A stretch of 64,000 nt of DNA from Bacteroidota bacterium (lineage in GTDB: Bacteria > Bacteroidota > Bacteroidia > B-17B0 > Aurantibacillaceae), in assembly GCA_030692515.1 (NCBI GenBank), contig JAUXZS010000056.1:186001-250000 (forward strand), in the 5' to 3' direction. Position numbers and translations under genes: made by a program. Of the stretch, positions 21,184 to 40,079 are shown piece by piece. The notes beneath the pieces were generated by a model. The model did not search any database, was not told the DNA's origin, and saw only the letters and a list, made by a program, of their open reading frames with translations. The stretch's first letter is position 1, and each line of letters begins with the position of its first letter.

Positions 21184-21894
21184 TTATATTTTCACGCCTA
21201 TTACGCAAACGTCGTCAACTTGCTCTAGTTGACCTCTCCAGTTTTCGAAGGTGTCCTGTAGTTTTTGTTTTTGAACCTCCATTGGTTCATCAATATTTAA
21301 AAGCAAAAATTCGCCAAGCTGTTTGTATTTAAACTTTTTACCTTTTGCTCCGCCAAACTGATCGGCATAGCCGTCTGTAAAAGTATAAATTATATCTCCT
21401 TTTTGAAGGTCGATTTTTTGAAGGGTGAATGGCTTTGTTTCGTCGTGGTATTTACCAACGGGCATTTTATCTGGTTTGTATTCGATAATTTTTTTATCGC
21501 GCACCAACCACAAAGGGTTGTTTGCCGCAGAAAATTCTAAAACCATATTCTTAAAATCGTATGCACAAAGCACACAATCCATCCCGTCTTTACTCTCTTC
21601 TTCGCTACCCTCAGGGTTTAAAGATGCAATAATACCTTTGCGCATATTATCCAAAATATCGTTTGGGTGAATAAGGTTTTTTTCGATAATAGACTCGTTA
21701 AGTCTTGATATACCAACCATGCTCATAAGGGCTCCCGGAACACCGTGCCCCGTGCAATCTGCGGTGCATAAATAAAAAATTTCGTTTTTGCTTCCTGTGG
21801 GTTTATGCGATTGCGCATAATAAAAATCTCCACTTACAATATCCTTAGGTTTATAAAGGATGAAAAAGTTTTTTGTTTCGGTAGCTGTTTCCAT
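21184..21894 (-). CDS. Stand-alone SpoIIE/PP2C-family phosphatase
   Basis: This 236-residue protein is a bare SpoIIE phosphatase domain: PKDIVSGDFYYA at the N-terminus, DCTGHGVPGALMSMVG, DGMDCVLC, FTDGYADQFGG and VDDVCVIGVK. All metal-binding aspartates are present. Unlike its two paralogs in the window (5072-7207 and 38127-40079) it has no signal peptide, TPR, transmembrane or coiled-coil part. No remnant of one is visible upstream, so it is either a cytoplasmic partner-controlled enzyme or an old truncation. Confidence 0.87.
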   Translation of the reverse strand: METATETKNFFILYKPKDIVSGDFYYAQSHKPTGSKNEIFYLCTADCTGHGVPGALMSMVGISRLNESIIEKNLIHPNDILDNMRKGIIASLNPEGSEEESKDGMDCVLCAYDFKNMVLEFSAANNPLWLVRDKKIIEYKPDKMPVGKYHDETKPFTLQKIDLQKGDIIYTFTDGYADQFGGAKGKKFKYKQLGEFLLLNIDEPMEVQKQKLQDTFENWRGQLEQVDDVCVIGVKI

Positions 21895-23896: not shown

Positions 23897-23912
23897 TGTT
23901 CCACGTGAAACA
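23897..23912. promoter_or_regulatory. parS-like ParB-binding site 1
   Basis: TGTTCCACGTGAAACA matches the conserved parS sequence TGTTNCACGTGAAACA at every defined position. It lies just after the end of the dnaE remnant and downstream of the methyltransferase stop. In most bacteria parS sites cluster around oriC, often by mnmG (gidA). Confidence 0.85.
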
Positions 23913-23913
23913 A

Positions 23914-24804
23914 TTAAGGCTTAACTCTTTTAAAAACATAAATAACACTGGAATAATCCACGGCAGAATTTGCCTTAAGATTAGATTTTAAGCCAACAAG
24001 AAACGCTTTAAAATATTTAATACTTCCGGTTTTATATTTCTCGCTAAGCATGCTAACATAAAAACTATCAAATTTCATGGGGGCAGCTTCAACTAGCTTA
24101 AAATCAAATTTGCCAAGAAGCTTTTCAACGGTTTCTTTATGGAAATGATATAGGTGACGAGGAACATCGTAGGCGGCCCAAAACCCTTTATAGTGTTTCG
24201 CGTCAAAACTAGTATGATTAGGAACGGCAATAATTAAAGTCCCATCCGGTTTAAGCACCTTTTTAAAGAAATTTAGCGTGTCATCAAGGTCAGTTACATG
24301 CTCTAATACGTGCCAAAGAGTTATAGCATCAAATGTCGTCTCTGGAATGTCGTGTAATAGGTTGTTTTTCGTTCCATAAACACTTAGATTCATCTCGGAG
24401 GCTATTATTCTCGCTCCCAAATCCGGCTCAATCCCAAAAGCCTCCCACCCCGAAAGTTTGCACGTATTTAAAAACATTCCTGTGCCAGCACCGTAATCCA
24501 AAATAGTTCCACGTGAAACATGTCTTGAAACGAGTTCAAGTTTTTTTATAAGCGTATAACTCCTAACGGCATGATATAACCTGGAGATGATGCCTTTCTT
24601 AGTGTTTGAATGAGAAATATAATCTTCAGACTTATAATAGCTACCTAACACATCATCAGAGGGTCGAGGGTTGGTAAAATGAAAACCACACACGTCGCAG
24701 GAGACTACGTTAAAGCTTTCTTCACTAACTGTATAATCTTTACAAGTAAGAACTGTTTTAAATTCCTCAGAGCTACAAACGGGGCAACTATTTATATTAA
24801 CCAT
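23914..24804 (-). CDS. Class I SAM-dependent methyltransferase with N-terminal zinc ribbon
   Basis: This 296-residue protein has an N-terminal Cys4 zinc ribbon (CPVCSS and CDVCGFHFTNPRP, about residues 7-45). A methyltransferase domain follows, with motif I ILDYGAGTGMFL (about residue 103), LWHVLEHV (motif IV) and DGTLIIAVPN. This architecture is common in capsule and sugar methyltransferases, but the substrate is unknown. A parS-like site is embedded in codons for HVSRGT directly before motif I. Neighbours on both sides also carry parS-like sites. Confidence 0.85.
   Translation of the reverse strand: MVNINSCPVCSSEEFKTVLTCKDYTVSEESFNVVSCDVCGFHFTNPRPSDDVLGSYYKSEDYISHSNTKKGIISRLYHAVRSYTLIKKLELVSRHVSRGTILDYGAGTGMFLNTCKLSGWEAFGIEPDLGARIIASEMNLSVYGTKNNLLHDIPETTFDAITLWHVLEHVTDLDDTLNFFKKVLKPDGTLIIAVPNHTSFDAKHYKGFWAAYDVPRHLYHFHKETVEKLLGKFDFKLVEAAPMKFDSFYVSMLSEKYKTGSIKYFKAFLVGLKSNLKANSAVDYSSVIYVFKRVKP
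24505..24520. promoter_or_regulatory. parS-like ParB-binding site 2, inside a coding region
   Basis: AGTTCCACGTGAAACA differs from the parS consensus only at the first base. It lies inside the methyltransferase gene. Confidence 0.75.
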
Positions 24805-24849: not shown

Positions 24850-26736
24850 TTATCTTCCAAGATACACCAACAAAACAGAAATGTCCGCAGGATTAATTCC
24901 AGAAATACGACTAGCTTGTCCGATTGTATGAGGCTTAAACTTCTTAAACTTTTCTATTGCTTCTGCGCCAAGACTCTTTATAGAATCATAATTAAAGTCT
25001 GGCTTAATAACCAAATCTTCAAGGCGACTCTGTTTGTCTGCGCTTTCTTTTTCGCGTTCAATATATCCCTCATATTTCATAAGAATCTCCGCCTGCTCGA
25101 TCGTTTCATTATCGTAAACCGAAAGAAAGTCAGAAAGTTGTTGATCGTTTAAGGCAATATCTTTAGCCAAAACATTAGGCCGAGATAAAATATTAAAATA
25201 ACGAGTTTTTTGAGACAGCGGGGCAGAACCAACAGACTCCAAAAAAGAATTCAAAACAGAAGGCTCGCCGCTTGTGTTTTTAAAGTAATCAATAATTTTA
25301 TTATAACCGTTTATCTTTTGATTCACCCTCTCCAATCTTTCGTTTCCGGCAAGCCCTAAGGCGTTAGATAAAGGGGTGAGTCTAATATCTGCATTATCCT
25401 GCCTCAGAAGTAAGCGGTATTCCGCTCTTGAAGTAAACATTCTATAAGGCTCGTCGGTTCCCTTTGTAACCAAGTCATCAATTAAAACTCCAATATAAGC
25501 CTCGTAACGATTAAGTATAAGCGGTTTAGCTTCGTTAATTTTTAAGTGGGCATTTATTCCAGCCATCAAACCTTGGCAAGCCGCTTCTTCATATCCTGTA
25601 GTGCCATTAATTTGCCCCGCAAAATATAAATTATCAACTAACTTGGTTTCTAAAGTAAGGCCGAGTTGAGTTGGTGGAAAATAATCGTATTCTATAGCAT
25701 AACCGGGCCTAAACATTTTAGCTCTTTCAAAACCAGGAATTAATTCCAAAGCTTTTTGTTGAACATCTATAGGTAAAGAAGTAGAAAACCCGTTCACATA
25801 TATTTCAACTGTATTCCACCCTTCCGGCTCCACAAAAAGTTGATGGCGTTCTCTTTCGCTAAATCGAGTAATTTTATCTTCAATGCTAGGACAATATCGA
25901 GGGCCTAATCCTTGAATTCGACCCTGAAACATCGGAGACTTTTCAAAGCCTGTTTTTAAAATATCATGAACCTTTTGATTCGTATAAGTAACATGACAAG
26001 GAATCTGCTTTTTTGAATTCTCGCCAATAAAAGGTGATGTATTATCTAAATAAGAAAATTTATCAGCAACTTCATCTCCGCCTTGAGTTTCCATCTTCGA
26101 ATAATCTAAAGAACGCCCATCAATTCTTGGCGGAGTTCCTGTTTTCATTCTGCCACTTTCAAATCCTATTTGGACTAACTGTTCCGTTATTCCTATACTT
26201 GCAGATTCTCCAGTTCGTCCACCGCCTATTTGTTTTTCTCCTATATGAATAATACCATTTAAAAACGTACCATTAGTAAGAACAACTGCTTTTGCCTTAA
26301 ATTCAACGCCCATTCCTGTAACAACCCCTTCAACCCTTTTTCCATCTTTTGAAATAATTAAAGAGCGCACCATGTCTTGCCAAAAATCAACATTTACATT
26401 TTGTTCGAGAGTTTCTCGCCATAAGCCGGCAAACATCATTCTATCATTTTGTGTACGAGGGCTCCACATGGCGGGGCCTTTGCTTCGATTGAGCATTCTA
26501 AATTGAATAGCCGATTTATCAGAAATGATTCCACTATATCCACCCATAGCATCAATCTCACGAACAATTTGTCCTTTGGCTATGCCCCCCATAGCAGGAT
26601 TACAACTCATTTGCGCAATGGTTTGCATATTCATGGTAACCAATAAAACTTTGGAGCCCATGTTAGCGGCAGCCGCAGCAGCCTCACAGCCAGCGTGCCC
26701 TGCACCAACTACAATTATATCGTAACTGCTTTGCAA
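24850..26736 (-). CDS. mnmG: tRNA uridine-5-carboxymethylaminomethyl modification enzyme MnmG
   Basis: This 628-residue FAD enzyme (GidA) works with MnmE to install cmnm5 on U34 of certain tRNAs. Signatures are the N-terminal FAD fold VGAGHAGCEAA (about residue 11), GGIAKGQIVREIDAMGG, TGTPPRIDGRSLDYS, GQINGTTGYEEAACQGL and the C-terminal helical MnmE-binding region ending INPADISVLLVYLGR. The best start is TTG at 26736. A perfect -7 element ends only 7 nt upstream, so the mRNA may have almost no leader. In many bacteria this gene lies next to oriC, which fits the nearby parS-like sites. Confidence 0.96.
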   Translation of the reverse strand: MQSSYDIIVVGAGHAGCEAAAAAANMGSKVLLVTMNMQTIAQMSCNPAMGGIAKGQIVREIDAMGGYSGIISDKSAIQFRMLNRSKGPAMWSPRTQNDRMMFAGLWRETLEQNVNVDFWQDMVRSLIISKDGKRVEGVVTGMGVEFKAKAVVLTNGTFLNGIIHIGEKQIGGGRTGESASIGITEQLVQIGFESGRMKTGTPPRIDGRSLDYSKMETQGGDEVADKFSYLDNTSPFIGENSKKQIPCHVTYTNQKVHDILKTGFEKSPMFQGRIQGLGPRYCPSIEDKITRFSERERHQLFVEPEGWNTVEIYVNGFSTSLPIDVQQKALELIPGFERAKMFRPGYAIEYDYFPPTQLGLTLETKLVDNLYFAGQINGTTGYEEAACQGLMAGINAHLKINEAKPLILNRYEAYIGVLIDDLVTKGTDEPYRMFTSRAEYRLLLRQDNADIRLTPLSNALGLAGNERLERVNQKINGYNKIIDYFKNTSGEPSVLNSFLESVGSAPLSQKTRYFNILSRPNVLAKDIALNDQQLSDFLSVYDNETIEQAEILMKYEGYIEREKESADKQSRLEDLVIKPDFNYDSIKSLGAEAIEKFKKFKPHTIGQASRISGINPADISVLLVYLGR

Positions 26737-28303: not shown

Positions 28304-28831
28304 CTACTCCATGGCTTCTTCCATGGCGTCAATTTTATCTTCGCTATAGTTGCCAGTTTGAACATCTAATACAACACCGTTTTTATCCAAGACAAAAATA
28401 TATGGAATTTTACGATCCTTTATGTCTAAAATTAACTCAACATCTTTCATGTCAGTTTTTTCTGTGTCCATAATATGAGGCCAAAAAGCTTTATCAGTGC
28501 CTTTTTTAAAGTCTTCGGCTACTTTTTTTAATCCATTAATTACTGGTACAAAAACAAAATTTACATCATAAACCGCAGAAACATCAATCGTTTTAGGTCC
28601 GCTAGCTTTTACCATAAAAGTATTGTAAAGTGGATTTAACCATTTTTTTAATTCATCTTCGGCGCCTTTGTTAAAAGCAACAGCAACTATTGTTTGTTTA
28701 CCATTTTTTATGGGCAGGCTTGTTCCTTTATTTTCTAAAGTAGAACCAACCATCAATGGAAAAGTTTTTCCTTTTTGAGAGCTGCAATTTAGTGCCGCTA
28801 ATAATATTGTAATAGCTAATAAATTTTTCAT
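28304..28831 (-). CDS. Thioredoxin-fold lipoprotein without CxxC
   Basis: This 175-residue protein has a lipoprotein signal peptide (lipidated Cys16 in AALNC). FPLMVGSTLENKGTSLPIKNGKQTIVAVAF is followed much later by PYIFVLDKNGVVLDVQTGNY, the pattern of a redoxin-like fold; it recalls the ATP10/TlpA-like families. There is no CxxC pair, so it is unlikely to be a thiol oxidoreductase and may be a binding or assembly factor. The family is not recognised with confidence. It follows rpiB by 22 bp on the same strand. Confidence 0.7.
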   Translation of the reverse strand: MKNLLAITILLAALNCSSQKGKTFPLMVGSTLENKGTSLPIKNGKQTIVAVAFNKGAEDELKKWLNPLYNTFMVKASGPKTIDVSAVYDVNFVFVPVINGLKKVAEDFKKGTDKAFWPHIMDTEKTDMKDVELILDIKDRKIPYIFVLDKNGVVLDVQTGNYSEDKIDAMEEAME

Positions 28832-28853
28832 TATTATATGTTTGGTTAATTAT

Positions 28854-29288
28854 TTAAATATCAATTTTAGTAATTCTGTCTTGATGTCTTCCGCCTTCAA
28901 AGGCCTCGGTTAAAAAAACTGTTACACATTTATGTGCCTCTTCAATAGAAATATACCTTGCAGGCAACACTAATATATTAGCGTTGTTGTGTTTTCTTGC
29001 TAAAGAAGCAATCTCGGCATTCCAACAAAGCGCTGCCCTTATGCCTTTATGCTTATTTGCTGCCATATTAATACCATTTCCACTTCCGCATAATAATATG
29101 CCAAAATTTGATTCTTCATCTAAAACAGAAATAGCAACTGCATGACCAAAATCAGGATAATCTGCTCTTTCATTAGAATAACAGCCTTTATCAATTACTG
29201 TATACTTTTGTAACTTTAAAAAATTAATTAAATCATCTTTTAATTCAAAGCCCGCATGATCACTTCCAATTGCAATTTTTATACTCAT
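28854..29288 (-). CDS. rpiB: Ribose 5-phosphate isomerase B
   Basis: This 144-residue protein interconverts ribose 5-phosphate and ribulose 5-phosphate in the pentose phosphate pathway. Motifs are GSDHAGFELKDDL (substrate binding), LLCGSGNGINMAANKHKGIRAALC (catalytic Cys and anion loop) and ARKHNNANILVLPARYI. The length is standard. Its start faces the AT-rich gene-free region, so its promoter must lie within about the first 100 bp of it. Confidence 0.93.
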   Translation of the reverse strand: MSIKIAIGSDHAGFELKDDLINFLKLQKYTVIDKGCYSNERADYPDFGHAVAISVLDEESNFGILLCGSGNGINMAANKHKGIRAALCWNAEIASLARKHNNANILVLPARYISIEEAHKCVTVFLTEAFEGGRHQDRITKIDI

Positions 29289-29770
29289 AATTATTTAGTA
29301 ATCTTTATAAATTATAATATTACTCAAAAATACTAATCAACGTTAATTAACACTAATAAATTAACCACTTGATAATGAACTCTTCAAAAATAAACAAATA
29401 AACATAGTTTATGTTAACTACTTTAATAAACGTTAATAATTAAGCCATAACATATTACCATAATATTAAATAATAATATCTCTTGTAAATTTTTTATTAA
29501 TAACCTAGTATAGTTATAATTTAAAATAATAATTTATAAGTCTGATTTAACGCTTACAAACAATTAAAAACACCAAAAGTTATTAAGTTTAATAACTACT
29601 AACTATTGTTAATAGTAGTTACTATATTTGACTTTCAGCACTTTAAAGTATTAACTTTGTTAATTAACTGTTTACTAGTATTGATAAACTTAAAAAACAA
29701 CTAAAAAAAAATAATTAATTAACAATACTAACACCCTATATATACAATACATAATTTTAAAATTTTAAAA
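29289..29770. other. AT-rich gene-free region, candidate replication origin
   Basis: This 482 bp stretch has no plausible gene and, by hand count, roughly 20% GC, lower than its surroundings. It holds many TTAATAA/TTAACGTT-type words and two hairpins with a GTT loop: AACATA-GTT-TATGTT (29401-29415) and one with outer arms TAACTACTA/TAGTAGTTA (29593-29621). Genes to the left run mainly on the minus strand and genes to the right mainly on the plus strand, as expected either side of an origin. parS-like sites and mnmG lie about 3-6 kb away. No clear TTATCCACA DnaA box was found (the closest, TTAACCACT near 29361, has two mismatches), so the call is inferred. It also holds the promoters of rpiB and nadA. 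Confidence 0.4.
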
Positions 29771-30757
29771 ATGAAAAATATATTATTAGATAAGGGTTGG
29801 TTAAATTTAAAAGTTGATACCTCTCTTGATTTAATCAAAGAAATAAATTATCTTAAGAAGAAAAAGAACGCAGTTATACTCGCACACTACTATCAAAATG
29901 CTGATATACAAGATATTGCAGACTATATTGGTGATTCGCTAGGTCTAGCCCAAGAAGCTCAAAAAAGTACTTCCGACATTATTTTATTTGCCGGCGTACA
30001 TTTTATGGCCGAAACAGCAAAAATTTTAAATCCTACAAAAAAAGTATTAATTCCTGACCTAAAAGCTGGTTGTTCTTTAGCCGATTCATGTCCTCCTGAC
30101 GATTTTAAAGCATTTAAAAGTTCTCATCCTGATCACATTGTCATAACTTATATAAATTGCTCTGCTGACATTAAAACGCTATCAGATATAATTTGCACAA
30201 GTAGCAATGCAGTTCAAATAGTAGAAAGTTTACCTAAAGAGCAAAAAATAATATTTGCTCCAGATAAAAATTTAGGAGCATATATTAATAAAAAAACCGG
30301 CAGAGACATGGTTTTATGGGATGGAGCTTGTATGGTTCACGAAATTTTTAGTTTAGAAAAATTAATAAAATTAAAAATACAACATCCAAAAGCAAAAGTT
30401 ATTGCTCATCCAGAATGTGAAGCTAATATTTTAGAACATGCCGATTTTATTGGAAGCACAACAGCATTATTAAATTATTCAAAAAAATCAATTGATAAAG
30501 AATTTATTGTTTTAACAGAAACTGGAATATTACATCAAATGCAAAAAAGTAGTCCAGATAAAACATTTATACCTGCACCTCCTAATAATAATTGTGCGTG
30601 TAATGATTGTCCTTATATGAAATTAAATACTTTAGAAAAAATTTATGTTGCTTTATTACACGAACAACCAGAATTATTAATGGAAGATGAAATGATAGAA
30701 AAAGCAAAAAAACCTATATTAAAAATGCTTGAATTATCGGCAAATTTTGGATTATAA
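29771..30757 (+). CDS. nadA: Quinolinate synthase
   Basis: This 328-residue 4Fe-4S enzyme condenses iminoaspartate with dihydroxyacetone phosphate to make quinolinate for NAD. Visible are the tandem-fold motifs [20 protein letters not shown] and [14 protein letters not shown], the cluster and active-site cysteines in [20 protein letters not shown] and CNDCPY, and NCSADIKT. nadB and nadC are not in the window. The gene is markedly A/T-rich compared with mnmG. It is preceded directly by an A/T tract and has no Shine-Dalgarno site, as is typical here. Confidence 0.94.
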
Positions 30758-32458: not shown

Positions 32459-35400
32459 ATGTCACAAAAAAAAGATCAATCCACACAGGTTGATTTAAAT
32501 ACTTTAAATCAGTTGCCAATTGCGGTTGCAATTTTCGATAATAAAAAAGTTTTTTTTATAAATAAAAAAGCGGCTGAATTGTTTCATATTTCTAAAGAAC
32601 AATTAAAAAACATAAATTCAGTTTCAATTTTTCAATTTTTAGATTCTCAATATCATAATAGAATAAAACAAAACAATACAAAAATTTTAAAGGGAGAAGA
32701 GTTTCCTCCTGTTGAATTATCTTTTAAAACTTTTAAAGGAAAACAAATTTTTATAGAGGCCAAATCAAATAGTGTTTTGTTTGAAAACAAAAAGGCAGTT
32801 CAAACAACATTTATCGAAATTTCTAAATTAAAACAAAAACAAATTGATTTAGAATTGTCGGAAAGCCTATTACTTGAAACGAAAGAAAAGTTTGATTTAA
32901 TTACAAAAAGCAGCAATGATATTATTGCTTTTTATACCTATCTACCAAAGGGAAAATACCTTTATGTTAGTCCAAATGTTACCAAAATACTGGGTTATGA
33001 TCCTAAGGATTTATTGAACGACCGTGATTTTTTTAATAAAAGAGTTATTGGAGAAAAAAAAGAGTTTTTACAAATTGACAACATAATTAAGAATTATCAA
33101 AAAAAGAACATCAAAAAGCACTACAGCTATACTTATAAAACAATTAAGAAAAATAAAGAAGAGGTTTGGCTCGAAAATAGTCTTACACCAATATTTAATT
33201 CGGCAGGAAAAATAGAATTTTTCTTAAATATTATTAGAGATATTACTATACAAAAAGAAAAAGAAATTGAAATAAAACTACAACACCTAAACTACCAAAA
33301 TCTTTTAGATAATTCGCCAGGAGCCTATATAATTCACCGACAGGGAGTCACTGTTTTTTGCAATAGGGCTACCTTAAAATTATTGCAATTAAAATCAGAA
33401 AAACAAATACTAGGAAAATTCACCCTTGACTATATAATTGAAAAAGATAGGATGAAAGCAATGGAGAGAATAAAAGATATTTACAAGGGAATAGACGTTG
33501 GAAAAGCTTCCACCTGGACATTAAAAGATACCAAGGGCAATTTAATAGAGGTTCAATTAACATCTACCCCAATAAATTATAATAACTCGAATTGTATATT
33601 AACGCTTATAATTAACTTAACCGAGCAACGGAAAGCTGAAACAGAAAAGTTAAAAGCCGAAATGATAAAAATTAATAATGAATTTTTATTATTAGAAGTA
33701 AAAGAAAGACAAGCCGCCGAAAAAAAGTTATTAGAAAAAACGGCTCAACTTTCATCTATATTTGAAAGTTCCACGCATTTAATTTGGACAATAAACGAAA
33801 AATTCGAAGTTACTTCATTTAACAAGAACTTCTCCGACACTGTTTTTAAAAAGTTTGGATTAAAACTTAAACCCGGCACAAATATTAGCAATAAATTAAA
33901 AAGCCAGAAGCAGGAATATATAAAGCTTTGGCACACAAAATATAACGAAGCTTTCGCGGGAAAAAAAGTTGAATTTGAAAGAGAAGATATTAATAACAAT
34001 AAAAAAGTTTTTCGGAAGGTTTTTATTAACCCAATTTTTAATAATAATAAAGTTGTTGGAGTAAGCTGTATAGCTCACGATATTACTGAAACAAAAGTTT
34101 ATGAAAACAAACTTATCAATCAGTCAGCAAAGTTGGAAGCCATTTTTGAAAGCGGCGACCAATTAATATGGACCTTCAATAGAAATTACGAACTCACATC
34201 TTTTAACCAAAACTATTTTAAATTACTTAAGAAGGAAAAACAAAAACTAAAAGTGCTTTTTTTAAAAGACACCATTGTTGATAAGAAGTTATTTATTTTT
34301 TGGAAGCAAAAATTTGATTTAGTTTTCAAAGGAGAGCACCAGGTTTTTATCCATAAAAGTATAATAAATAAAAAAACAATCTACCGTGAAATATTTATGC
34401 ACCCAATTTTTTTCGAGGGAAAAATAATAGAAGCTTCTGCCATAGCACAAGACATAACTGAGCGAATGAATAATGAAAATAAAATACTCGAACAGTCAGC
34501 AAAACTAAAGGCTATTTTTGAAAGCGGAACACAAGCTATGTGGACAATAAATAAAGAAAGGCAAATTACTTCATGCAATAAAAATTACGAAGCGGCTATT
34601 TTAAAATCGCTCGGCGTTAAACCAGATAAAAATTTAAGCATATATTCAAAACAAATAGCAAAAAAAAATTCTAGTGTGGGAGTTGGAGCTATTACAGGGA
34701 AGCAATATGACATTGCATTTAGCGGTAAGTCAACCGAATTTACAATAAACAGAACTGACCTTGATAAAATACCAGTAACAAGGCAAATTTATTTACAGCC
34801 AATTTTTAATAAAGCAGGAGAGGTAGAAGAAGTGTCTGGAATCGCGTACGATATTACCGAGAAAAAAACAGCAGAGCTAAAATTATTAAACCAACCAGCA
34901 AAACTCAATTCTATATTTGAGAGTAGCCATCATTATATTTGGACAATAGATAATAATTTTAAGCTAACATCTTTTAATAAAAACTATTTCGAGTTAATCA
35001 CCGAAATCTATGGCACAAAACCCTTTGTTGGTTTGAAATTAGACAGAGGTATCCTAAGCAATAACGACGAATATATTTCAAAATTAGATTATAATTACAA
35101 AAAAGCGCTTGCAGGAAATGAAAGTGGCTTTGAGGTAGAAATATTGGATAAAAATTATAATAAGGTTTATTTAGAGGTTTTTTTAAACCCTATTTATAAT
35201 AACGAAATAATAGAGGAGGTTAGCGGCATTGCGCATAATGTTACAGAAAAAAAATTAAACAGTCAGCGGGTTGAGCAGTCTTTAAAAGAAAAAGAAGTGC
35301 TTTTAAAAGAAGTTCATCATCGCGTTAAAAACAACATGCAAATTATTAGCAGCATTTTAAACTTACAATCCTCTTATGTAACCGACGCTTATACGCTTTC

Positions 35401-35893
35401 GCTTTTAAAGGAAAGCCAAAATCGTATTAAAACAATGGCTTATATTCACGAAAGTTTATACCAAAACAAATCATTTACGTCGGTTAATTTTTCAGAATAT
35501 ATTCAAACTCTTTCTAAAAACATTATTCAATCCTATGTTGTTTCATCAGAAAAAATAGAGTTGGTTTTAAATGTTCAAAAAACAACCTTAAGTTTAGACA
35601 CTTCAATTCCTGCGGGATTAATAATAAATGAATTAATAACAAACGCTATAAAACACGCTTTTCCCAACTCAAGAAAAGGTAAAATCTACTTAAATTTGAA
35701 AACAGAAAATAACACCATTCATTTAGAAGTAGCAGATGACGGAGTTGGAATTCCTTCTGATTTGGATTATAATAACACTAATTCGCTTGGTTTACAATTA
35801 GTTAACACATTAATTGACCAATTAGGTGGAGAAATTAAATTTAAAACAAAAAAAGGAAAAGAAACCAAAGTTTTAATTAAATTTAAGATGTAA
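32459..35893 (+). CDS. Multi-PAS sensor histidine kinase, HisKA_2 type
   Basis: This 1144-residue kinase has no transmembrane segment and is probably cytoplasmic. Seven PAS-like domains precede the kinase: three divergent ones (about 10-115, 140-265, 280-390) and four close copies beginning near residues 429, 555, 681 and 814, each with a SIFES-x-x-x-IWTIN-x-x-x-x-LTSFNKNY-like core. The phospho-acceptor box LLKEVHHRVKNNMQIISSILNLQ (about residue 945) marks HisKA_2, and the ATP domain has NELITNAIKHAF, DDGVGIP and LGLQLV. It is 6 bp upstream of a LytTR response regulator, its likely partner. The signal sensed is unknown. Confidence 0.92.
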   Translation: MSQKKDQSTQVDLNTLNQLPIAVAIFDNKKVFFINKKAAELFHISKEQLKNINSVSIFQFLDSQYHNRIKQNNTKILKGEEFPPVELSFKTFKGKQIFIEAKSNSVLFENKKAVQTTFIEISKLKQKQIDLELSESLLLETKEKFDLITKSSNDIIAFYTYLPKGKYLYVSPNVTKILGYDPKDLLNDRDFFNKRVIGEKKEFLQIDNIIKNYQKKNIKKHYSYTYKTIKKNKEEVWLENSLTPIFNSAGKIEFFLNIIRDITIQKEKEIEIKLQHLNYQNLLDNSPGAYIIHRQGVTVFCNRATLKLLQLKSEKQILGKFTLDYIIEKDRMKAMERIKDIYKGIDVGKASTWTLKDTKGNLIEVQLTSTPINYNNSNCILTLIINLTEQRKAETEKLKAEMIKINNEFLLLEVKERQAAEKKLLEKTAQLSSIFESSTHLIWTINEKFEVTSFNKNFSDTVFKKFGLKLKPGTNISNKLKSQKQEYIKLWHTKYNEAFAGKKVEFEREDINNNKKVFRKVFINPIFNNNKVVGVSCIAHDITETKVYENKLINQSAKLEAIFESGDQLIWTFNRNYELTSFNQNYFKLLKKEKQKLKVLFLKDTIVDKKLFIFWKQKFDLVFKGEHQVFIHKSIINKKTIYREIFMHPIFFEGKIIEASAIAQDITERMNNENKILEQSAKLKAIFESGTQAMWTINKERQITSCNKNYEAAILKSLGVKPDKNLSIYSKQIAKKNSSVGVGAITGKQYDIAFSGKSTEFTINRTDLDKIPVTRQIYLQPIFNKAGEVEEVSGIAYDITEKKTAELKLLNQPAKLNSIFESSHHYIWTIDNNFKLTSFNKNYFELITEIYGTKPFVGLKLDRGILSNNDEYISKLDYNYKKALAGNESGFEVEILDKNYNKVYLEVFLNPIYNNEIIEEVSGIAHNVTEKKLNSQRVEQSLKEKEVLLKEVHHRVKNNMQIISSILNLQSSYVTDAYTLSLLKESQNRIKTMAYIHESLYQNKSFTSVNFSEYIQTLSKNIIQSYVVSSEKIELVLNVQKTTLSLDTSIPAGLIINELITNAIKHAFPNSRKGKIYLNLKTENNTIHLEVADDGVGIPSDLDYNNTNSLGLQLVNTLIDQLGGEIKFKTKKGKETKVLIKFKM

Positions 35894-35899
35894 AACATT

Positions 35900-36658
35900 A
35901 TGGAAAAATTAAAAATATTTATTGTTGAAGACGAGAGCATTGTTGCAAAAGATATTCAAAACAGCTTAGTAAAATTAGGATACGAGGTTGTTGGAATTGC
36001 CAATAATGGAAAAGAAGCTATTGAAAAAATTATCGAAATTAACCCAGATCTTGTTTTAATGGACATCATGATAAAGGGTGAGCTTACAGGAATTGATGTC
36101 AGCGAAAAAATAAAAGAAAAGGTAAAAATTCCTATTATATTTTTAACGGCATATGCAGATGAAGGCACGCTTGCTAAAGCAAAAATTACGGAGCCGTATG
36201 GTTATATTTTAAAGCCATTCAAAGAAATTGATCTTCATTCAACCATAGAAATGGCGTTTTATAAACACCAAAAAGATTCTGAATTACAAAAAGAACGAGA
36301 TTTTTTATATTCTTTGGTTGAAAATAAAGATGATGCAAACAAAGATATTTTATTTGTGAAGGCAAATAGCAGGTTGGTAAAAGTATTGTTAAAAGATATT
36401 TTTTATGTTGAAGCCTTGAAGGATTACGTAATAATTAATACACAATACGCTCGTTATACCGTTCATAGTACAATGAAAGATATTGAGAAAAAATTAGGCG
36501 CAACAGATTTTGCGAGGGTTCACCGTTCATTTATTGCACGATTAGATAAAATCCAAAGCATCGATTCTCAAAACGTTATTTTGGAAAACGAAAAAAAAGT
36601 AATTCCTGTTGGTGGTTCTTTTAGAGAAGAATTGATGCAAAAACTCAACACTCTTTAA
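35900..36658 (+). CDS. LytTR-family response regulator
   Basis: This 252-residue regulator has an N-terminal receiver domain with acidic pair DE at 11-12, phospho-acceptor Asp55 (LVLMD), the LTAYAD Thr and the conserved Lys105 in ILKPF. A C-terminal LytTR DNA-binding domain follows (FVKANSRLVKVLLKDIFYVEALKDYVII, then FARVHRSFIARLDKIQSI). It is almost certainly phosphorylated by the PAS kinase encoded just upstream. Its target genes are unknown; no LytTR direct repeat is obvious at the neighbouring promoters. Confidence 0.93.
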   Translation: MEKLKIFIVEDESIVAKDIQNSLVKLGYEVVGIANNGKEAIEKIIEINPDLVLMDIMIKGELTGIDVSEKIKEKVKIPIIFLTAYADEGTLAKAKITEPYGYILKPFKEIDLHSTIEMAFYKHQKDSELQKERDFLYSLVENKDDANKDILFVKANSRLVKVLLKDIFYVEALKDYVIINTQYARYTVHSTMKDIEKKLGATDFARVHRSFIARLDKIQSIDSQNVILENEKKVIPVGGSFREELMQKLNTL

Positions 36659-36747: not shown

Positions 36748-38127
36748 ATGGCAAAAACCAAAGTTACATTCTTCTGTCAAAACTGCGGCGCACCCTCTGC
36801 AAAGTGGATTGGGAAATGCCCAAGCTGTGACGAATGGAATACATATGTTGAAGAAGTAGTTCATAAGGAAACAAAAAACGATCGCCTTCAATTATTTTCG
36901 GGCAATAAAAACCCAAAAGCATCAAACAAATCAATTTTATTACAAGATGTGGGCCTTCAGGATTTTCCTCGCATCGCCGTTCCGGGTAAAGAACTTACAA
37001 GGGTTTTGGGTGGAGGCATTGTTCCTGGAAGCTTGGTTTTATTTGGTGGAGAGCCAGGAATAGGTAAATCTACTTTAATGCTTCAACTAGCTTTGCGTTT
37101 AAAAAATTTAAAAATTTTATATGTAAGCGGCGAAGAAAGTGAACAACAAATAAAAATGAGGGCTGAAAGAATTGGTGTTACAACAGACAATTGTTTTATA
37201 CTTCAAGAAACCAACACTCAAAATATTTTTCAGCAAATTGTAGAAATAGAACCACAACTAGTTATTTTAGACTCTATCCAAACATTACACACAAGCTATA
37301 TTGAAAGCAGCCCGGGAAGCGTTAGCCAAGTGAGAGAATGCGCAGCAGAATTTTTACGTTTTGCAAAAGAAACAAATACGCCGGTTTTTATGATAGGTCA
37401 TATAACCAAAGAGGGCAGCTTAGCTGGACCAAAAGTGTTAGAACACATGGTTGACACGGTTTTACAATTTGAGGGCGACAGAAACCACGTGTACCGTTTA
37501 TTACGCGCTACAAAAAATCGTTTCGGTAGCACCAACGAAATGGGTATTTATGAAATGAATGGCGATGGCTTACGAGAGGTTTTAAACCCTTCAGAAATAT
37601 TAATAACCAATCGCGATACGCCAACAAGCGGCGTAGCTATTTCTGCAACAATGGAGGGTAACCGCCCAATGTTAATTGAAACACAAGCATTGGTTAGCAG
37701 TGCGGCATATGGTACACCACAAAGGTCTTCGACTGGTTTTGATTTAAGAAGGCTGTCAATGTTATTAGCAGTACTCGAAAAGCGCTGTGGCTTTCGATTA
37801 GGCGTTAAAGATGTTTTTATAAATATTGCCGGAGGTATAAGGGTAGAAGATCCAGGAATTGATTTAGCCTTAGTTTGCGCAATTTTGAGTAGTAACGAAG
37901 ACATACCAATTCCTCAAGACACTTGTTTTACTGGCGAGGTAGGGTTAACTGGTGAAATAAGACCCGTAAACAGAATTGAACAACGAATTAGCGAAGCAGA
38001 AAAATTAGGTTTTAGTAAAATTATTTTAAGTAGCTACAACCTTAAAGGAATTAATGTAAATTCATATAAAATTAAAATACTTTCTGCAAGCAAAATGGAA
38101 GAGGTGTTTAGTTTAATATTTGGATAA
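36748..38127 (+). CDS. radA: DNA repair protein RadA
   Basis: This 459-residue branch-migration ATPase acts in homologous recombination. It has the N-terminal Cys4 zinc finger (CQNCGAPSAKWIGKCPSC), a RecA-like core with Walker A GEPGIGKST (about residue 98), the RadA-specific KNRFG motif, and a C-terminal Lon-protease-like domain (GGIRVEDPGIDLALV, FTGEVGLTGEIRPV). All motifs are intact. Its stop overlaps the ATG of the TPR phosphatase gene, so the two are probably co-transcribed. Confidence 0.96.
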   Translation: MAKTKVTFFCQNCGAPSAKWIGKCPSCDEWNTYVEEVVHKETKNDRLQLFSGNKNPKASNKSILLQDVGLQDFPRIAVPGKELTRVLGGGIVPGSLVLFGGEPGIGKSTLMLQLALRLKNLKILYVSGEESEQQIKMRAERIGVTTDNCFILQETNTQNIFQQIVEIEPQLVILDSIQTLHTSYIESSPGSVSQVRECAAEFLRFAKETNTPVFMIGHITKEGSLAGPKVLEHMVDTVLQFEGDRNHVYRLLRATKNRFGSTNEMGIYEMNGDGLREVLNPSEILITNRDTPTSGVAISATMEGNRPMLIETQALVSSAAYGTPQRSSTGFDLRRLSMLLAVLEKRCGFRLGVKDVFINIAGGIRVEDPGIDLALVCAILSSNEDIPIPQDTCFTGEVGLTGEIRPVNRIEQRISEAEKLGFSKIILSSYNLKGINVNSYKIKILSASKMEEVFSLIFG

Positions 38128-40079
38128 TGAAACAACAATTTTTGTTATTATTTATTTTAACTAGTAATTTGAGTTTTTCTCAAACTGAATCATATTTGGA
38201 TTCAATTTTTAAGGTTTGTAATGAGCTTAAGAAGCAGAACACAGACATTTTTATTGAAAAGTCGCACTATCTTTATTCCCAAACTAAAAAGGCAAAAAAC
38301 GAAAAATACAAACAAAAAACAGAGAATTTGTTTGGAATATATTTTACCAACAATCAAAAATTTGACTCAGGATTTGTTTATTTTTCTAAAGCCCTAGTTT
38401 CTGCGGAGAACAACAAAGACACACTCGCAATTGCGAAAGCGTTAATGAATATTGGTATTGTTTTGCGGTACCAAAAAAACTTTTTAAAAGCAGAAAAATA
38501 TTTTAACGATGCTTATTTATTATGCAAAACACTCAATGATAATTCCGTTCAAATAAGTGTATTATATAACTTATCTGGATTGTTTTTAGATTGGGGTAAG
38601 TTTAATGAGGCAATTTCTGTAAACAGAAATAGTTTAGCGCTTTCAACAAGAATTAACGACATAAAAAACCAAATAAAGGCGCTAGAGGCTTTGGGAAGTA
38701 ATTTCTCAGAACTTAAACAATTAGATTCAGCAAAAAAGTATTTGTTAATTGCTTACGAAAAAGCCAATGCAATTGATTATGACGAAGAAAAAATATATTT
38801 GTGTAATAATATAGGTGTACTTTATTTACAAGAAAAAGATTACGCTTCGGCGGAAAAATATTTAATAGAAGCTGAAAGCCAAGCGCTAAAACAAAATGCT
38901 AAAAACGCGTTAATTGATATTTATGCTAACCTGAAAGATTTATATTATAAAACAAACCAACTAAAAAACTGTATTTCTTATTTTCATTTACAAGACTCTA
39001 TTAAAACACTAATTTATAACCAAGATTTAATAAATACTACTGCAGAAATTGAAACAAAATATCAAACAGAAAAAAAAGACCTTCAATTAAAACAAACAAA
39101 CTCTGAATTAATTTTTCAGGCCGAGAAAAACAAACAAAAAACAATAATAATTTGGATTGGCGCACTTGCATTTGTTTGCACGATTTTCTTTTTAATTTTG
39201 GCTTTTGTAAATTATAAGCGAGCAAAAAAAGCAAATTTAATTGTACAAAACCAAAACCAGATTTTAGAATTACAGAAGAAAGAAGTACAACATCAAAAAA
39301 GTATTATTGAAGAAAAACAACACGAAATTATATCAAGCATTAATTATGCTCAGCGAATCCAAAGCGCCGTTTTAACCGGCGAAGAAGTGTGGAATAAAAT
39401 ATCTAAAGAACATTTTATTTTTTTTCAACCAAGAGACATTGTGAGCGGAGATTTTTACTGGGCACATGTATTATCAAACGGAAGAGCCGTGTTTGCTTTA
39501 GCTGACTGTACTGGTCACGGAGTTCCTGGCGGCTTTATGAGCATGTTAGGCAATAGTTTTTTAAATGAGCTTGTTGTGGAAAATAAATTATTTAAAGCCG
39601 ATGAGATATTAAATCGTTTGCGCGACAAAGTTATTGCTGCATTATTTCAAAAAGGCGAAACACAACAAAAAGACGGTATGGATATGGCGCTTTGTGTTTG
39701 GAATAAAATGGATAACACTTTAGAGTTTGCCGGAGCCAACAATATTTTATATTTAGTAAGAGATAAGCAGCTACTAGAATACAAGGGGGATAAAATGCCG
39801 ATAGGCGCCTATCTAGAGGAGAACAAAAAATTTAGTGCTCAAAAAATTACTGTACAAACAAATGACTTTATTTATTTAACTACAGATGGTTTTGCCGATC
39901 AGTTTGGTGGGGAAAAAGGAAAAAAATTTAAATCAAAACAACTGGAACAATTATTGGTAGAAGTTTCTTCATTACCATCTGAAGAACAAAAAGAAAGATT
40001 AACTAAAGCTTTTTTAAATTGGAAATTAAAACAAGAACAAACCGACGACGTAAGTGTAATCGGAATTAAGGTTACTTAA
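38127..40079 (+). CDS. TPR-domain SpoIIE/PP2C-family serine phosphatase
   Basis: This 650-residue protein has a signal peptide (1-19), TPR repeats to about residue 290, a transmembrane helix (IIIWIGALAFVCTIFFLILAF, about 335-355), a coiled coil with the linker SSINYAQRIQSAVL, and a C-terminal SpoIIE phosphatase. The metal-binding motifs DIVSGDFYWA, DCTGHGVPGGFMSM, DGMDMALCV, TTDGFADQFGG and TDDVSVIG are all present. It is the third such enzyme in the window and is built like the 5072-7207 protein. It overlaps radA by 1 bp, and its stop touches that of the convergent amidase gene. Confidence 0.9.
   Translation: MKQQFLLLFILTSNLSFSQTESYLDSIFKVCNELKKQNTDIFIEKSHYLYSQTKKAKNEKYKQKTENLFGIYFTNNQKFDSGFVYFSKALVSAENNKDTLAIAKALMNIGIVLRYQKNFLKAEKYFNDAYLLCKTLNDNSVQISVLYNLSGLFLDWGKFNEAISVNRNSLALSTRINDIKNQIKALEALGSNFSELKQLDSAKKYLLIAYEKANAIDYDEEKIYLCNNIGVLYLQEKDYASAEKYLIEAESQALKQNAKNALIDIYANLKDLYYKTNQLKNCISYFHLQDSIKTLIYNQDLINTTAEIETKYQTEKKDLQLKQTNSELIFQAEKNKQKTIIIWIGALAFVCTIFFLILAFVNYKRAKKANLIVQNQNQILELQKKEVQHQKSIIEEKQHEIISSINYAQRIQSAVLTGEEVWNKISKEHFIFFQPRDIVSGDFYWAHVLSNGRAVFALADCTGHGVPGGFMSMLGNSFLNELVVENKLFKADEILNRLRDKVIAALFQKGETQQKDGMDMALCVWNKMDNTLEFAGANNILYLVRDKQLLEYKGDKMPIGAYLEENKKFSAQKITVQTNDFIYLTTDGFADQFGGEKGKKFKSKQLEQLLVEVSSLPSEEQKERLTKAFLNWKLKQEQTDDVSVIGIKVT

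Follow-up and report, generated by a model that had tools for sequence, protein, structure and literature searches.

We sought to establish where an uncultured Bacteroidota bacterium begins to copy its chromosome, a question raised by a gene-free island at positions 29289–29770 of the stretch analyzed here (64,000 nucleotides, hereafter the window; positions 186001–250000 of contig C41, which in full measures 529,628 bp, in a genome of 4.33 Mb and 68 contigs). The 482-bp island, devoid of open reading frames of at least 90 aa, is flanked by the divergent genes rpiB (28854–29288, minus strand; Pfam LacAB_rpiB, 1.6e-56) and nadA (29771–30757, plus strand; Pfam NadA, 1.8e-122), and is AT-rich and intergenic in the manner of bacterial chromosomal origins (oriC). 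Its GC content is 17.4%, the lowest of any 482-bp window in a scan at 20-bp steps over 410 kb of C41 (the contig up to its last 120 kb); GC was at or below 20% in 13 of 20,476 windows, every one of which overlaps the island. Within the window, the share of long open frames lying on the plus strand rises from 0.30 to the left of the island to 0.89 to its right, a shift that is weaker over the complete contig (0.48 to 0.66). A preliminary description of this DNA had proposed a candidate origin on the strength of a gene-free island of roughly 20% GC, a switch in gene orientation, and parS-like sites plus mnmG within 6 kb; these features are all borne out, and the evidence below leads us to conclude that the island is very probably the site at which replication starts.

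The strand composition of the contig reverses at this place. Mean GC skew is −0.0345 left of the island and +0.0228 right of it, and the cumulative minimum of the complete contig falls at window position 30183, inside nadA and 0.4 kb right of the island. When 5-kb blocks were permuted 20,000 times, the depth of the resulting V was reached once, and a left–right rank test on such blocks gave p = 7e-5. Two sister chromosomes from the same genus behave alike: in G001 (one contig of 4,604,442 bp, sampled in 40 stretches of 20 kb) interpolation puts the minimum at 959 kb, with the orthologous island at ~957.3–957.8 kb and the skew maximum at 3259 kb against an antipode of 3259.5 kb; in G031 (a 5,648,308-bp contig, 20 samples) the minimum, at 2328 kb, compares with an island at ~2328.5–2329.0 kb, the maximum at 5316 kb being 0.16 Mb off the antipode, within an unsampled gap. 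As sampling was denser around the islands, both of these minima are precise only to ~50–115 kb. The skew minimum that had been suggested as a check on the origin assignment is therefore found at the island, on its own contig and, by sampling, on two further chromosomes.

Comparison with relatives demonstrates that the island persists as an element in its own right. An rpiB gene lies upstream of nadA with an island between them in 24 of 30 NadA loci (this genome included), the island measuring 467–531 bp at 13–29% GC in 17 members of the genus and 418–619 bp at 18–33% GC in seven members of other families; among the best 80 of 580 confirmed NadA loci, some with upstream DNA too short to judge, the two genes adjoin in 12. 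Approached from rpiB, nadA is the neighbor in 18 of 30 loci; of the remaining 12, eight retain the island, one ends at a contig edge, and three (G035, G004, and G005) lack one directly next to rpiB. In G035, an extra gene separates rpiB from an island that adjoins nadA (as islands also do in G008 and G051), in G005 the island sits between mnmG and a MORN-repeat gene with neither rpiB nor nadA adjoining, and in G004 it has mnmG on one side and the contig end on the other; in G004 and G005 alike the distance to parS is 2.2 kb. Another arrangement, with the island between rpiB and the MORN gene, occurs in G009, G010, G039, and G045. The island sequence is hence kept independently of either flanking gene. 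Averaged over 40-bp steps, majority-base conservation across 28 aligned islands ranges from 0.53 to 0.83, which sets conserved blocks apart from the diverged sequence around them.

A model (R1) built from sequence alone, with 28 training sequences covering the right-hand 200 bp of the island, matches 38 of 60 genomes: this one (a single match), 32 of 36 others of the genus (a single match in 31 and two in G002), and 5 of 23 from the wider class. Eight of the 32 positive same-genus genomes, G004 and G005 among them, were not knowingly part of the training alignment. Four of the five class-level matches lie beside rpiB or nadA; that of G041 (E 9e-4, on a 5-kb contig with no recognized neighbors) is probably due to chance. 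R1 found no match in the same-genus genomes G025, G032, G033, and G034, with completeness values of 73% for G032 and 60% for G033. G034 is rated 100% complete and has dnaA, yet its rpiB, nadA, parS, and island matches are absent together, which suggests that the origin contig is missing from that assembly. We also observed, in the small genome G025, an R1-unmatched gap of 18% GC upstream of rpiB (L272:7161) with five ATNAACA cores within 500 bp, and, in G002, two differing island–nadA copies (G002:C94:651-847 and G002:C2:11789-11979), perhaps reflecting a mixed assembly of two species.

Chromosomal origins commonly have a parS cluster nearby, and here two parS-like sites lie ~5 kb left of the island, with mnmG (gidA; 24850–26736, minus strand; Pfam GIDA, 3.3e-160) in between. 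The first, TGTTCCACGTGAAACA (23897–23912), is the best in the genome, departing from the strict palindrome TGTTTCACGTGAAACA at one position; the second, AGTTCCACGTGAAACA (24505–24520, core GTTCCACGTGAAAC), has two mismatches to that palindrome, a score shared with three other genomic sites, and one mismatch to TGTTYCACGTGRAACA. Allowing up to one mismatch, the TGTTYCACGTGRAACA pattern has exactly two sites in the whole genome, and those at 23897 and 24505 fit it. Near-exact parS was found in 55 of 60 genomes. Among the matches listed, which cover 26 genomes, 22 genomes have parS on the same contig as rpiB or the island and four have it on a different one; the distance is at most 15 kb in 20 of the 22 (22 kb in G014, 28 kb in G058). 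Both mnmG and parS lie on the rpiB side in this genome, G001, G031, G009, and G038. In G008 and G045 they occupy the MORN side, and in G015 and G028 parS is found toward nadA. Thus mnmG and parS accompany the island, yet their side and distance vary and the island is the constant element, a pattern that would fit exchange of material across an origin.

The wider neighborhood holds further genes that we record here as observations. To the right, positions 32459–36658 encode a large kinase-like protein, in which PAS repeats and a histidine kinase end can be made out by eye, along with a LytTR response regulator, a pair that recurs right of the origin in several relatives; two products with the look of SpoIIE/PP2C-type phosphatases (by eye; 21184–21894 and 38127–40079), one with TPR-like repeats, flank the origin.

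What the island does not contain is a standard DnaA box: neither TTATCCACA with up to one mismatch nor TTATNCACA occurs within it, in agreement with the preliminary description, which had seen no consensus box. Exact TTATCCACA is rare in this genome as a whole (20 occurrences counting both strands, where the reversed control pattern has 46), with none in the 64-kb window and no cluster at any locus, so that the box cluster elsewhere which the same description had held out as counter-evidence did not appear in this form. The lack of a canonical cluster in the island lowers only the claim of canonical boxes, because species-specific divergent DnaA boxes are known, with Thermotoga and Cyanobacteria given as cases in PMC10225481.

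A blind count of 7-mers in 25 chosen islands ranked ATTAACA/TGTTAAT first, with 73 observed against 11.4 expected. Motifs were counted against shuffled sequences in 28 distinct genus islands (25 from same-genus genomes together with L153–L155, placed in the genus by NadA identity of 80–82% only; the duplicates L151, L152, and L156, identical to L031, L035, and L028, were left out) and in 13 islands of other families. The degenerate core ATNAACA occurs 169 times in the genus islands against 32.0 expected (about five-fold, and at least three times in each of the 28), counts that are not independent since the islands are homologous by descent; the other families have 65 against 14.5. G or T as the sixth box base is not in excess, and neither is C in the genus (10 vs 9.0), with a slight excess elsewhere (12 vs 5.4). 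The full 9-mer TTATNAACA is enriched about thirteen-fold in the other families (25 vs 1.9); in the genus it reaches 10 against 5.2 (shuffle maximum 13), which is not significant, and it was not found in the present island. We therefore reject a strict full-length TTATNAACA box for the genus and claim only the 7-base core there. TTATNCACA is mildly in excess in both sets (5 vs 1.4, shuffle maximum 6, in the genus; 3 vs 0.6, maximum 3, in the others).

Within the scanned 410 kb, the island is the top 482-bp window for ATNAACA (6, runner-up 5), ties for the top in TTAACA (5), and comes second in HTTAACA (4, against a maximum of 5 in other windows), and so carries a cluster of a repeated, lineage-specific motif of the kind expected at an origin. 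From the motif counts, we infer that the ATNAACA core represents a DnaA box in which the sixth base of TTATNCACA has changed from C to A; such a change would account for the missing consensus box. The spelling is not unheard of, as TTATCAACA is listed as a DnaA box of a Cyanothece linear chromosome in PMC4674748.

Candidate boxes are found at both ends of the island and in its middle. On the left, the conserved block TAATCAACGTTAATTAACACTAATAA (29334–29359, plus strand) holds a candidate box TAATTAACA at 29344–29352 and falls where conservation of the island peaks, in a 40-bp stretch with a mean majority-base frequency of 0.83. The ATNAACA scan then picks out two box-like cores AAATAAACA at 29388–29396 and 29396–29404 (plus strand; AATNAACA conserved in the alignment) and a box-like TAGTTAACA at 29412–29420 (minus strand; aligned TGTTNA conserved). 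Alignment and scan together identify a candidate CTATTAACA at 29607–29615 (minus strand), inside the conserved block ATTGTTAAT and between or within the arms of an inverted repeat (29585–29629), and a further TAATTAACA at 29658–29666 (minus strand).

The right-hand end has a more elaborate arrangement. Two tandem candidate boxes, TAATTAACA and ATACTAACA, lie 9 bp apart at 29716–29733 (plus strand), and are followed by a CCC patch (29734–29736), TATATATA (29737–29744), and an AT tract running to the nadA start codon, which we propose, from the alignments, as the unwinding element (29734–29770, plus strand). The tandem spacing recurs in relatives: 24 of the 28 genus islands carry plus-strand AACA-N5-AACA, where shuffling gives a mean of 1.8 and a maximum of 6, as do 5 of 13 from other families (mean 1.0, maximum 4), and a YTAACA box lies within the last 140 bp in all 28 genus islands (shuffled 7.9) and in nine of the 13 others (shuffled 3.3). 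With DnaA-trios read in their usual strand orientation relative to the box, the runs that follow the conserved tandem pair number only 2 and 1; three or more NAN trios are not found after this pair because the tract is mostly alternating TA. Runs of 3–4 trios follow six of eight box-like sites in the island by raw count, and such runs come easily in AT-rich DNA.

This layout recalls the basal unwinding system of Bacillus subtilis and others, described in PMC8287927 as DnaA-boxes, a spacer or GC-rich patch, and DnaA-trios, with a rule of at least three trios, each with a middle A, placed 0–16 bp after a box. The island resembles it in the order of tandem candidate boxes, CCC patch, and AT tract, and differs in that its candidate boxes are divergent and the mostly alternating TA tract after the tandem pair does not follow the trio rule; trinucleotide-like tracts occupy the same place in relatives such as L048 (CTATTATTACTACTA) and L193 (TAGTAGTAGTAATAA). 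Taking the island as a whole, we regard it as highly probable that it is oriC, with DnaA acting on divergent ATNAACA-like boxes, melting of the AT tract, and ParB acting at parS. DnaA would bind boxes of altered sixth base and drifted first bases over both halves of the island, and from the tandem pair at 29716–29733 would be guided across the CCC patch onto the tract at 29737–29770; this tract would melt, helicases would load, and replication would proceed in both directions, with ParB, bound 5 kb off at parS, handling the newly copied origins.

The most durable competing explanation, though an improbable one, is that the island is only the long divergent promoter and regulatory region of rpiB and nadA, in which the AACA motif is an ordinary transcription factor site. 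The Bacteroidota −7 promoter consensus is TAnnTTTG, and the island has this element on both strands: at 29325 on the minus strand, and as TAACTTTG at 29652–29659 on the plus strand, in an aligned block reading toward nadA and overlapping the candidate box at 29658–29666 by two bases. Of the 28 genus islands, 27 have a plus-strand TAnnTTTG (mean of 9.6 after shuffling), and 11 have one with a TTG 19–23 bp upstream (shuffled mean 0.8); the element is not enriched in the other families (7 of 13 vs 4.9). Real promoters would not decide against an origin, as origins may also carry promoters. A purely regulatory role sits poorly with the eight genomes in which the island stays without nadA alongside, with the gene that intervenes before rpiB in G035, and with the absence of both genes from the island's borders in G005 (and in G004 as far as its contig shows); nor would it predict that the skew switch falls at the island in three genomes with parS near in the same three.

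We consider it still less probable that the origin lies near the island and not within it, for example around parS and mnmG or inside nadA. Skew minima are of limited resolution, that of C41 being displaced 0.4 kb into nadA, and the parS sites are 5 kb to the left; against this, the extreme of low GC in 410 kb is the island itself, and neighboring genes switch sides or vanish while the island remains. The lowest-GC and densest-ATNAACA windows of the fetched locus both fall at the island in G038, G039, and G051, although in G045 the densest ATNAACA window is elsewhere in the locus (the island region there has one TTATNCACA and no TTATNAACA).

An origin at dnaA, as in many bacteria, with the island a secondary skew inflection, would find some support in G001, whose single contig begins near dnaA (C-terminal domain at 1159–1365), the gene at which submitters often set position 1; the G001 skew minimum, however, is 0.96 Mb from that gene. 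In the present genome, dnaA is at ~573.1–574.5 kb of another contig, C66, surveyed by 16 sampled stretches of 20 kb (C41 having been analyzed in full): skew is negative in all 16, the 20 kb around dnaA included, with no switch. Visual inspection of the 160 bp upstream of dnaA revealed no box cluster, and no exact TTATCCACA occurs within 15 kb of it. Bacteroidetes oriC is commonly distant from dnaA (PMC4755523). On the skew of G001 and C66 we reject this location, which we hold to be extremely improbable. A structured or small RNA as the product of the island is just as improbable. Conserved blocks and inverted repeats might suggest one, but the blocks are short, separated, and repeated on both strands, and an Rfam search of 28800–30300 gave no match at E ≤ 1. 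Between the two possibilities left by the preliminary description, an origin with divergent boxes or a promoter-rich spacer, the skew, the flank-independent conservation, and the lack of a switch on the dnaA contig thus favor the origin.

Known systems offer partial parallels to an origin at the island. The oriC of the first chromosome of Prevotella intermedia OMA14, as presented in PMC4755523, likewise lies at a transition in strand composition far from dnaA, but was predicted from multiple E. coli DnaA boxes with one mismatch allowed, a rule by which the island has none, carrying AACA-type boxes instead. The gidA–oriC–mioC type of origin (Yersinia pestis and E. coli; PMC10225481) shares the proximity of mnmG, which adjoins the island directly in G004 and G005, and differs in its box and in that the island's usual neighbors are rpiB, nadA, and the MORN-repeat gene. 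Elsewhere, the origin of Blattabacterium, which has no dnaA, was placed by GC skew (PMC2768785), and that of Melioribacter between dnaA and dnaN (PMC3534657); the papers listed for rpiB together with oriC concern other bacteria. Because dnaA-distant origins, divergent boxes, and TTATCAACA are already described in these sources, the island is classed as an oriC with a variant box and not as a new kind of element.

A match to the DnaA C-terminus was present in 56 genomes, and the protein was read in 31 (this one and the best 30 loci), of which 27 have the signature DHATV and four (G046, G052, G053, and G057) DHSTV; the E. coli signature is DHTTV. TTATNAACA is absent from the 16-kb rpiB loci of three of the four DHSTV genomes (G046, G052, and G057). 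As judged from these sequences, a link between signature and box spelling is only suggestive, because the corresponding loci of G040 (itself DHATV) and G050 have, respectively, no clear TTATNAACA cluster and none. We put forward tentatively, as a proposal that may well prove wrong, that several Bacteroidia families share an origin in which the sixth base of the box has changed, turning TTATNCACA into TTATNAACA, and a DnaA whose helix-turn-helix reads GGKDHATV where other bacteria have DHSTV or DHTTV, and that the present genus has drifted further, in the first bases of the box and in an unwinding tract that has become TATATATA.

In this lineage, dnaA does not mark the origin and the standard box search comes up empty, so routine methods would have difficulty in locating the origin. 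With a conserved origin that can be searched for, replication direction, and growth rate from peak-to-trough read depth, could be derived from metagenomes for an uncultured genus. If the proposal holds, the shared changed box and GGKDHATV would constitute a traceable case of initiator–origin co-evolution across families, for which the related origins form a natural series open to direct test.
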